Part shown: positions 13,022 through 34,767 of the stretch, piece by piece
How positions within the stretch are numbered: the stretch's first letter is position 1
Layout of the letters: every line of letters starts with the position of its first letter
Virus record (IMG/VR): IMGVR_UViG_3300043448_000780
Location: 1 to 49,440 of that record
Strand: one strand, 5' to 3'
Origin: a virus
DNA: 49,440 nucleotides
Program-made: the position numbers and the translations under genes
The notes under the pieces: generated by a model
Told to the model about the DNA's origin: nothing
Database searches by the model: none
The model's input: only the letters and a program-made list of their open reading frames with translations

Positions 13022-14566
13022 TCACTTACCAGGAAGTGCCTTTACCCCAAGTTTTTTATTGCGAGCAGCATCATTTTGTCTTGCTTTTTGAAGTGCTTGC
13101 TGTGCTTTTGCAGCATCATGCTTCTTGTATGCACCTGCAAACATAGTTCTTCCAATTCTTTCTAATGGATTAGAAGAAGTTTTAGCAAGAGATTGAGCAC
13201 TTGGCCCTGCCTTATAAACTGCTTTACCATCCTTAAACGCAAGATGTCCTGCTGTTGATTGCCCACCTCTTTGAACTACACCAGTTTTAGCAAGTTGAAC
13301 AGTTTTTCTTTGTGATCCAGAACCAGTTGACATAAATGCAGGACCACCTGGTTTTTTCTGACTAAATGATGTTTGTCCACCAATACCTTTAATAGCAGTT
13401 CCTGCTTGCTTTTGACGATTTGCTGTTGCCATTGCTTTTCTTTCAACCGCATTAGCACCAGCAGCAACATCAAATGCCTTAGATGCTGCAATTGATCCTG
13501 CTGTTGCGCCACCAATTGATCCAACTGGACCAGCAATGCTACCAGCAGCACCACCTAAAGCGCCGCCAGCAGCGACTGTAGCACCTTTGGCAAGTGATCT
13601 CAACAAACCAGAACCCTTCGCTCTTTCATCAGCAACATCAAGTGCTGCTGCTGCAGGTCCAAGAAGTTTTCCACCGATTCTTCCAGCTCGTTTAAGTCCT
13701 GATGGAATTTTAATTTTTGGTCCAGTAGGTGGTTTTCCTCCAGTTTGTCCAACCGCAGGAAGTGCTGGTGGTTTTCCTCCAGAACCTCCAGAAGATGTTC
13801 TGGGTGTAGACGCTTTATCATATGCACCTCTCATCATAGCTTCTGGGGGTGCCTGTGGATTAGTTCCACGAGTTGCTAATTTGCCGGCAAGTTGCTTGGC
13901 ATCGTATGCTGCTGCTCTTGCTTCTTTTGCTGCTGCTCTGTTTCTTCGCTCAGCTGCTTCAAGTTCTGGAGTAAATTCTCGCCTACCACGACTACTAGTT
14001 GATCCTGAAGCAGGTAAAGCAAGTCTTGAAGGAGTTCCAGAAAGTGTTCTGTTTCCATAAGGAACTCTACTTGAAGGTGGTTCTGGAGTTCCATATTTTT
14101 TTGGCGGGTTTCCAGGAAACTGTTGCCAAGCATCAGCAGCAGCTCCTGACGGTTTTCTTGCAGGACTTGCTACTGTAGTTGTTTTTCCTTGAGGACTTAC
14201 TTCTGGTTGAGTTGTTTGAGATGCAATTTTATTAGTTTGCGAAACTTCTGGTGCTGCATTTGCCGATGCTCTTGCTCTTGCACTTCTAATTGCAGGAGCT
14301 CCTGCAGATCCTCGCAATGGTTGTCTCTGTCTCCCTAAAGCAGAAGGACCACCTAATCTTTGCTTGCTTCTGTTTGGTAGACTATTATATGTATCTCTAT
14401 CTAATCTATCATCCAATCTTTTTAATGGATCATTATTACCTAAAGCAACTGATCCTGCAAGAGGGGTAGTTGCAGCTGCTAATGCTGCTGCAGCTTCAAG
14501 ATCTCTTTTCTTTTTTTCATCTTCATTCAAATATGACTCTTGCAAAAACTGACTAAAGGACTTCAT
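13022..14566 (-). CDS. Basic low-complexity internal head protein candidate with capsid-targeting-like N-terminus (514 aa)
   Basis: The start MKSFSQFLQES closely matches the T4 capsid-targeting peptide MKTYQEFIAE-A, which is cleaved by the gp21 prohead protease after (L/I)xE. The rest is rich in Arg, Lys, Ala, Gly, Ser and Pro. A Gly/Ala hydrophobic stretch (residues 315-370, ALGGAAGSIAGPVGSIGG) resembles those of membrane-active or ejected proteins. A segment LSGTPSRLALPASGSTSS is shared with the protein at 45059-46897. The family is unknown. I infer a DNA-associated internal protein ejected with the genome. A terminator-late promoter composite precedes it. Confidence 0.8.
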   Translation of the reverse strand: MKSFSQFLQESYLNEDEKKKRDLEAAAALAAATTPLAGSVALGNNDPLKRLDDRLDRDTYNSLPNRSKQRLGGPSALGRQRQPLRGSAGAPAIRSARARASANAAPEVSQTNKIASQTTQPEVSPQGKTTTVASPARKPSGAAADAWQQFPGNPPKKYGTPEPPSSRVPYGNRTLSGTPSRLALPASGSTSSRGRREFTPELEAAERRNRAAAKEARAAAYDAKQLAGKLATRGTNPQAPPEAMMRGAYDKASTPRTSSGGSGGKPPALPAVGQTGGKPPTGPKIKIPSGLKRAGRIGGKLLGPAAAALDVADERAKGSGLLRSLAKGATVAAGGALGGAAGSIAGPVGSIGGATAGSIAASKAFDVAAGANAVERKAMATANRQKQAGTAIKGIGGQTSFSQKKPGGPAFMSTGSGSQRKTVQLAKTGVVQRGGQSTAGHLAFKDGKAVYKAGPSAQSLAKTSSNPLERIGRTMFAGAYKKHDAAKAQQALQKARQNDAARNKKLGVKALPGK

Positions 14567-24642: not shown

Positions 24643-25977
24643 TTAATGTTTTACTTTTTTCCTATTTTTATTTATCAAATTAATACCATAAGGTTTTCCA
24701 CCAACTTGAAGATTTTCAGAACCAGTTCCAATAGCACCTGGTGTCATTTTTGATGCGTATATAAAAGCACCCAAAGTTCCTACCAAAGTATTAGGTTTTC
24801 CCGGAAGTCGCATCATTCTATCCATATGTTTTTCAGAATAAGATTCTTTTACATCTTTAATCCAAGATTTAAACATCATTCCATTTTCAGTTACACAAAT
24901 TAAATAGTTGGTTCCTCTACGAATAATTTTACCATTCAATCCAGTATTTAAATTTTCAACAAAAGTTCCAACTTTAAAAATATTTTTATCAATATAATTT
25001 TCACGTAGAGATTGTAGATCAAATTTTGGAGCAATTTCCCAAGTATTATATCCTTCTTGCTGTATTTCTTGAATACCCATCCCTTGACGAACAAGATCAA
25101 ATAGTTGAAGCGCCTCTTTATTTTTTACCCCTTGAGGAAGTGCCGAACGGAAAGTCATAAAATCTCCCTCAGCTGCAGCAAGTCTAAGTCTTGATGCAGA
25201 TACACCTTCTACACCTTTATTACTATCAGGATCTCTATCACCAGAAGACACAACATCAATTACATCAAATTGATATAGTTGTCCATTATAATCATTTGAT
25301 AATCTTTCAAATTCTTTGACACGATCTGCACCGCCAACAATTCTTACATTAGTATACCCATCATTGTGTGCTTTTTTGAGAACATCAAAAATAGTTCTAA
25401 AGTTTGGATCATTCACAATTCTTTCACTATGATCTGGAAACATCTTTCTCATGAATGATATTTTACTATCAGGATCTAATGGGTTTTTCTTTTTATCCTG
25501 ACTGCGTGAAGGAACAATAATATAGTCTCCACCATCTTCCATTGCTGACATTGCAGCAGTATCCATCAATTGTTGATGTCCAACTGTTGGAGGATTAAAG
25601 CGACCAAAAGCAATTGTAAGAGTTCCTTTTGTTTTAGGAACATCTGGTGGAGTTGCTACTGGTTCTTCTTGAGGAATTTCTTGTTGCGCTACATCTTGCG
25701 ATTGTTGCTCTACAGGTGCTTGTTGTTGTGGAGCAGGTTGTTCTGGATATGAAGATCCCAAAGGAATATTCTTTTCAAACTCATTTTGCTTTGGATCCTT
25801 TCCACCAATAACCTGTCGCTTGTTGAAATACTTTAATTGACCACCCACGGTCTTTGCCTCAAATTCACCAGTGGCCCTATTATACCATCCCCCATGCCCA
25901 TCACCAACAAGTCCAAGTCGTTTTGCTTGAACTGAGGCAGAGGTTGCTTCGGTTATGAATTGGTTAAATTTTTTCAT
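24643..25977 (-). CDS. Cytidylyltransferase/NMNAT-like protein with capsid-targeting-like N-terminus (444 aa)
   Basis: The start MKKFNQFITEA resembles the T4 capsid-targeting peptide MKTYQEFIAEA. A Pro/Gln-rich linker (residues 75-115) leads to a nucleotidyltransferase domain: LTIAFGRFNPPTVGHQQL (HxGH-like motif, residues 117-135), IVGGADRVKEF, and VEGVSASRLRLAA (the SxxxR motif of NMN or pantetheine-phosphate adenylyltransferases). The C-terminal 150 residues are unassigned. The family transfers a nucleotidyl group from NTPs. I infer that the enzyme may be packaged in the head and injected; its substrate is unknown. Confidence 0.82.
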   Translation of the reverse strand: MKKFNQFITEATSASVQAKRLGLVGDGHGGWYNRATGEFEAKTVGGQLKYFNKRQVIGGKDPKQNEFEKNIPLGSSYPEQPAPQQQAPVEQQSQDVAQQEIPQEEPVATPPDVPKTKGTLTIAFGRFNPPTVGHQQLMDTAAMSAMEDGGDYIIVPSRSQDKKKNPLDPDSKISFMRKMFPDHSERIVNDPNFRTIFDVLKKAHNDGYTNVRIVGGADRVKEFERLSNDYNGQLYQFDVIDVVSSGDRDPDSNKGVEGVSASRLRLAAAEGDFMTFRSALPQGVKNKEALQLFDLVRQGMGIQEIQQEGYNTWEIAPKFDLQSLRENYIDKNIFKVGTFVENLNTGLNGKIIRRGTNYLICVTENGMMFKSWIKDVKESYSEKHMDRMMRLPGKPNTLVGTLGAFIYASKMTPGAIGTGSENLQVGGKPYGINLINKNRKKVKH

Positions 25978-26813: not shown

Positions 26814-27212
26814 TCACCTAATTGGCATCAGGTCAAATAATTCTGGATGAAGTTTTCCATACTTTCTCACAATCTCGCCCGCTTTTGCATTTGCTTCATT
26901 TTCAGCGGAACTTCCAGGATTTGATGAGATTTTCTTTCCATCCATAACTTGTTTATAATGAACGAACTCATGAGATACTGTTCTTAGAATATCTATAGGA
27001 TGGCGATTAATAATACTAATATAAAGTATTTCTCCGGACATCATACCAAAAGTCATATTGATTTTAGCAAAATCAGAGTCATCTATGAGGACATATGGAA
27101 TATCATATGTTAAACGAAGTTCTCTTTTAAGGAAGACAATAAATCTTTTAAGAATAGTATCAAACTGTATTCTTGTAGTTGGTCTTCCTTTTCTTTTGCC
27201 AATCAAAGACAT
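26814..27212 (-). CDS. Putative zinc metallopeptidase (HExxH, 132 aa)
   Basis: Starts MSLIGKRKGRPTTRIQFDTI. The zinc motif is VSHEFVHYKQ (about residue 81), with ENEANAKAGEIVRKYG further on, which may give the third ligand (Glu), as in gluzincin or SprT-like minimal proteases. No signal peptide, so it would act in the cytoplasm or in the virion. It lies between tRNA-Ala and the 61-residue gene of the replication operon. Confidence 0.75.
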   Translation of the reverse strand: MSLIGKRKGRPTTRIQFDTILKRFIVFLKRELRLTYDIPYVLIDDSDFAKINMTFGMMSGEILYISIINRHPIDILRTVSHEFVHYKQVMDGKKISSNPGSSAENEANAKAGEIVRKYGKLHPELFDLMPIR

Positions 27213-34587: not shown

Positions 34588-34767
34588 TTAGTCACCACCA
34601 GAATCACCAGAAGAACCACCAGAACCACTGTCAGTATCTAAAGCACATATTTTCTTTTTTGGTGCCATAGCATACTTCACGGTTCTACCATAACAATTTT
34701 CTTTAGTTGGTAAAGGTGGGTTTCCAAAGTCACCCACTTTTTCCATAAACTGCTGAAAGGTTTTCAT
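34588..34767 (-). CDS. Small protein with capsid-targeting-like start and Gly/Ser/Asp tail (59 aa)
   Basis: ATG 34765-34767 to TAA 34588-34590. Starts MKTFQQFMEKVGDFGNPPLP, so the first seven residues match MKTYQEF of the T4 capsid-targeting peptide. The prohead protease Glu would be at position 9 rather than 10. The tail (DSGSGGSSGDSGGD) is flexible and acidic. A packaged or accessory head protein is possible. It follows hsp20 by 18 bp on the same strand. Confidence 0.62.
   Translation of the reverse strand: MKTFQQFMEKVGDFGNPPLPTKENCYGRTVKYAMAPKKKICALDTDSGSGGSSGDSGGD

Follow-up and report, generated by a model that had tools for sequence, protein, structure and literature searches.

A predicted adenylyltransferase with a T4-type capsid-targeting sequence as probable head cargo of a T4-like cyanophage

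The internal proteins of phage T4 are small inhibitors of type IV restriction enzymes (PMC12373910), and T4-type leaders in the T-even phages are old knowledge, as cited in the same paper. Mutational work in T4 has assigned targeting by this capsid-targeting sequence (CTS) mainly to residues 4 and 7, and its processing to residues 8 and 10 (PMC9026906). In cyanophages, mass spectrometry has found one enzyme family in the virions of S-SM1 (as T4-GC190; PMC3037559), S-SCSM1 (ORF91; PMC9602691) and S-CREM2 (ORF154; PMC10665884), with S-CBWM1 cited as a further case in PMC9602691; the virions behind the first three detections were CsCl-purified or purified. The GenBank record of S-SCSM1 likewise marks the homologue as a virion protein. 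Both virion presence and speculation on injection are already in print for this family. Here we describe a member of the family whose N-terminus resembles the T4 leader.

The window, that is the whole stretch of DNA analysed, is a 49,440-base IMG/VR record and represents a fragment of a T4-like cyanomyovirus. Its closest relative is Synechococcus phage S-SRM01 (84% DNA identity across 78% of a 12 kb stretch), whose counterpart of the enzyme is 90% identical. The earlier note had given the coordinates of the open reading frame exactly, and had missed that it lies on the minus strand (Table 1); a plus-strand reading of 24643-25977 is ruled out by many stops throughout. An in-frame TAA lies two codons 5' of the ATG, so that the N-terminus is well fixed. 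The gene is flanked by gp41/mazG on one side and nrdA/nrdB on the other, and its product ends, after the beta domain, in a basic tail. Both motifs named in the earlier note, GRFNPPTVGH and SASRLR, are present, while the strand, the second leader module, the C-terminal beta domain, the other CTS proteins of the window and the prior proteomics go beyond it. Upstream of the enzyme, positions 26814-27212 encode a peptidase-like protein; a similar-looking protein at another locus (L219:590-1051) starts with the CTS MKTFQEFLNEA.

Table 1. Features of the enzyme gene and other CTS-bearing genes in the window.
Feature	Position	Strand
CTS-tagged adenylyltransferase-fold protein, 444 aa, phrog_395 ('cytidyltransferase' annotation in relatives)	24643..25977	-
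Capsid-targeting sequence MKKFNQFITE/A, predicted cleavage after Glu10	25945..25977	-
Second leader module, aa 13-53, AKRLGLVGDGHGGWY...EAKTVGGQLKYFN, common to unrelated virion cargo (by sequence similarity)	25819..25941	-
Variable linker rich in Pro and Gln, aa 54-112, modelled with low confidence	25642..25818	-
Adenylyltransferase-fold domain (predicted), aa 113-304, model pLDDT 90.7	25066..25641	-
T/HxGH motif GRFNPPTVGH, aa 125-134	25576..25605	-
SxSxxR motif SASRLR, aa 260-265	25183..25200	-
Small C-terminal beta domain of phrog_4808 type, about aa 320-380, SH3-like in appearance	24838..25020	-
Second CTS-bearing protein of the window, MKSFSQFLQES..., 514 aa, without Pfam family	13022..14566	-
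59-aa protein with MKTFQQFMEK at its N-terminus, loosely matching the CTS; S-SRM01 has the same start	34588..34767	-

The proposed likeness of the enzyme's N-terminus to the T4 targeting peptide holds: in the T4 record, IPII and IPIII both begin with MKTYQEFIAEA, to which MKKFNQFITEA is identical at 6 of 11 positions, with F instead of Y at position 4. A strict CTS pattern at a start codon occurred 0 times across 40 Markov shuffles of the window. Searched as a DNA pattern, the decapeptide gave 16 matches in 13 phage records (2.5 Mb), compared with 0 for the reversed control; the matches in T4 were ipII, ipIII and gene 61.1. The product of this last gene (L292:1467-1631; 54 aa, hypothetical) has the CTS-like N-terminus MKTFKEFIKED and may be a T4 head protein that has gone unrecognised.

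For conservation, 73 relatives were picked by catalytic-domain patterns, leaving the N-terminus unused, and from loci L082-L157 only, because statistics on loci selected by an N-terminal pattern would be circular. The CTS is kept in 71 of these 73, a set made up of the query's top-ranked relatives, the most distant ones being unsampled. Among the 71 aligned sequences, the targeting positions are nearly or fully invariant (F4 in 70, F7 in all), as are the processing positions (L, I, F or V at position 8 and E10, each 71/71), while positions 5, 6 and 9 vary; position 11 is Ala in 50 and Ser in 15, giving a small residue in 65 of 71. The window enzyme has F4 and F7 for targeting, I8 and E10 for processing, and A11 after the cut, so that its prohead-protease-like site, as suggested before, would be Glu-Ala as in T4. 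Similar putative sites are found in the major capsid precursors of S-SRM01 (SFLSE/A), S-SCSM1 (SFLAE/A) and S-CREM2 (GLLTE/A). The decapeptide is kept in more distant relatives without the module that follows it in the window enzyme (L064-066, S-CREM2 gp154), and in the Syn9 and S-SM1 homologues, where this next module is divergent; the leader is absent from the relatives L069, Cr30 gp66, PBECO4, phi30-3, MED4-213 gp179 and S-PM2 p139. The CTS thus appears to outlast changes in the domain that comes next, which we count in favour of a role in carrying cargo.

The earlier note had named absence from virions as telling against a packaged enzyme; by the published proteomics, homologues are present in virions of S-SM1, S-SCSM1 and S-CREM2, and all three carry a CTS (MKKFSAFLNEA, MKSFLQFLKEA and MKNFSSFLTEA, respectively). 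S-CREM2 allowed a comparison, as its published table lists 52 of the 219 ORFs as virion proteins. The CTS ORFs of this phage are the SAM hydrolase gp6, gp13, the kinase gp14, gp136 and the cytidylyltransferase gp154, the last with 3 unique peptides only in the virion data of PMC10665884. All five are virion proteins, compared with 52/219 of all ORFs (p=6.5e-4 by Fisher's test, and 0.0067 when stratified by length), and among annotated non-structural proteins this holds for 3/3 with a CTS versus 1/56 (p=1.2e-4). These p-values are optimistic, since Gln at 2, Leu at 4 and Phe at 8 were admitted to the motif once the N-termini had been seen. The narrower family pattern leaves three ORFs, namely gp6, gp14 and gp154, all in the virion; the same N-terminus, which the earlier note had proposed to look for, is found on other cyanophage proteins such as gp6 and gp14. 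S-SCSM1 has two strict CTS matches, of which one is a virion protein and the other, S-SCSM1_30 (106 aa), is not in the virion list. The genes around the enzyme in this phage, S-SCSM1_89, 90, 92 and 93 (L166), carry virion-protein annotations too, so that the region from mazG to nrdA looks like a head-cargo cluster.

A profile of aa 13-53, the stretch behind the CTS, matches the S-CREM2 kinase gp14, in two copies of which the second is preceded by SFDQFQEHALMEGG, and gp12, where the match lies near the N-terminus, after RFASFMAEAA. Conversely, an independent tblastn with the kinase leader retrieved the cytidyltransferase leader of S-SSM7 (4e-7), and with the gp12 leader that of P-TIM68 (2e-6). 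Judged by these similarities, aa 13-53 is a second leader module that also occurs in two virion proteins, a kinase and a nuclease-like protein. The latter, gp12 (L072:7704-10313), carries this module and a CTS-like leader, and is annotated as CRISPR-associated Cas9/Csn1; Pfam found no family and no support for a Cas9 domain in it, and the name is thus the record's annotation only.

The nucleotidyltransferase-like domain that had been read from the motifs is borne out by a Pfam match above cut-off (CTP_transf_like, PF01467, 28.7 bits vs 21), by the predicted fold and by the intact motifs. In structure comparison the domain model is closest to phosphopantetheine adenylyltransferase (PPAT; 3otw_A, Z 14.0, rmsd 2.7 over 150), followed by NadD (12.7) and archaeal or bifunctional NMNAT (12.4). 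The modelled Rossmann-type fold, together with both signature motifs, places the enzyme in the T/HxGH superfamily, and by predicted fold it is an ATP-type adenylyltransferase, PPAT, NadD and NMNAT alike; the annotation 'cytidyltransferase' derives from the family name, the close folds being adenylyltransferases (PPAT, NadD, NMNAT, FAD synthetase). These fold scores are too close to fix the substrate. The NCBIfam equivalogs for NMN/NaMN (TIGR01526, 19.6 vs 341; TIGR00482, 16.3 vs 112) and PPAT (TIGR01510, 12.5 vs 103) stayed below their cut-offs, and searching the PDB by sequence, with the full protein or a domain profile, gave nothing useful (best relevant MJ0541, E 0.14, and NadM-Nudix, E 0.21). 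The earlier note had also drawn an analogy to T4 Alt, of which the idea of delivery stands. A reading as an ADP-ribosylating enzyme is rejected, as Pfam finds CTP_transf_like only, at E up to 1, and no ADP-ribosyltransferase domain.

What, then, would such an enzyme do in a phage head? We consider it probable that it is head-packaged cargo, for which docking, cleavage, injection, activity and substrate are the parts that we infer. The decapeptide would dock the enzyme in the prohead scaffolding core, and the phage prohead protease would cut after Glu10. The mature protein of aa 11-444, with the module, a flexible linker, the adenylyltransferase domain and the C-terminal beta domain, would stay in the DNA-filled head, and enter the cell along with the phage genome. 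There it could use ATP to adenylylate a small phosphorylated acceptor, supporting NAD at time zero, ahead of phage gene expression. The same proteins could instead be structural internal head proteins: the scaffold core or DNA condensate would then be where the CTS, module and beta domain work, and the enzyme domain would be an insertion, either optional or vestigial. Indeed, among 53 distinct full-length CTS-bearing family members about four have altered active sites (the domain is present but degraded in L229 and L273), and three (L184, L205, L288) keep CTS, module and C-terminal domain with no enzyme domain at all. The active site is thus degraded or missing in roughly one in eight, indicating that catalysis is not needed everywhere and that the delivery parts are separable from it; in MED4-213 gp178 the C-terminal domain stands apart from the enzyme, behind an IPI-like leader. 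However, both catalytic motifs are found by pattern in 44 of the 53, and in at least one more by eye, and 23 columns of the domain, active-site motifs included, are invariant across 37 sequences (a set partly chosen by one motif), and we regard a purely structural role as unlikely. Far less probable still is an ordinary intracellular enzyme carried over into virion preparations as a contaminant, with an N-terminal likeness that is coincidental or serves another role. Co-purified protein is raised by the authors themselves in PMC9602691 and PMC10665884, but the excess of CTS matches over the reversed control, the way in which the CTS tracks virion presence in S-CREM2, and position-specific conservation that agrees with the T4 mutational data all argue against this. 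As an observation apart, one protein (L213:1909-3024) joins a CTS, an adenylyltransferase-like domain and an HNH-like C-terminus.

For the acceptor, NMN or nicotinate mononucleotide (NaMN) is our leading guess, and a tentative one. A packaged and injected enzyme could also act on another acceptor, for example phosphopantetheine, FMN, a sugar phosphate or, together with the neighbouring DUF6267 protein of relatives, a nucleic-acid end, and we hold this variant to be a real possibility that falls somewhat short of even. PPAT is the top structural match and the enzyme's motif reads TxGH, as in PPAT, while the weak sequence scores lean towards NadR/NMNAT (E 4e-4 vs 0.11 for PPAT, none of them anywhere near its cut-off). 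In marine relatives, the gene adjoining the enzyme carries a ligase-like KWDGAPA motif (L158:330-1292, L159:755-1333, L160:284-1489, L162:1320-2576), with Pfam assigning DUF6267 in L158 and L162. In S-PM2 the DUF6267-type gene looks split, with the cytidyltransferase carrying its second half, and some DUF6267 proteins bear a CTS themselves (L178). Against an involvement here, no DUF6267 gene was seen at the window locus and none is annotated there in S-SRM01, and 'ligase-like' is a reading of the motif.

Scanning IMG/VR for the decapeptide gave at least 124 matches, and among the matches listed a single one was a trivially short closed ORF. The enzyme family forms the largest group (59 of the 124 among those listed), and other cargo among them includes DUF6267, a GNAT acetyltransferase, a DPBB protein and DUF192. 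In Caulobacter phage Cr30, gp60 (L293:3016-3336) starts with MKTFKQFFNES, followed by weak PARP and KptA matches under the Pfam cut-offs, and is a possible candidate for an injected ADP-ribosyltransferase like T4 Alt. Taken together, we think it quite probable that T4-like cyanophages and many uncultured relatives have a CTS-coded injected set, in which CTS and the module of about 40 aa are swapped between adenylyltransferase, kinase and nuclease-like protein, and the CTS alone is placed on SAM lyase, acetyltransferase, PARP-like protein and DUF6267. If true, the N-terminus alone would predict cargo from sequence.

Few viruses in water are as abundant as cyanophages, and to our knowledge almost nothing is known of what cyanophages inject other than DNA. 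Should the leader be a true packaging signal, injected proteins would become readable from genomes, several puzzling virion enzymes would be explained as cargo rather than contaminants, a simple tag would be at hand to test by mutation, and one could ask by experiment whether an adenylyltransferase adjusts the cofactor pools of the host during the opening minutes of infection. The terms 'capsid targeting sequence' and 'cyanophage' occur together in one T4 review only in the open-access literature, the scope of this search. As far as that literature shows, the CTS on this enzyme family, the two-part leader and the broader set of CTS-tagged cargo are new, which does not prove priority.

Compared with known systems, the enzyme shares with T4 IPII and IPIII the N-terminal decapeptide, its key residues and the Glu-Ala site, while the cargo here is an enzyme of 444 aa and has a second leader module, none being visible in the T4 proteins. 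Like T4 Alt, it would be an enzyme that travels in the head and is injected, Alt being an ADP-ribosyltransferase and the present protein having no such domain. The virion 'cytidyltransferase/NMNAT' of cultured cyanophages (T4-GC190, S-SCSM1 ORF91, S-CREM2 ORF154) belongs to the same gene family, and in S-SM1 and S-SCSM1 lies at the same locus, between mazG and nrdA; the excerpted accounts describe no capsid-targeting leader on it, and the window copy stems from an uncultured relative of S-SRM01. With NadM, NadR, NadD and PPAT (CoaD), finally, it has the predicted fold and the T/HxGH and SxSxxR motifs in common, and it differs from them in its identity of only 12-20%, in reaching no equivalog cut-off, and in the leader and C-terminal domains that flank the enzyme.
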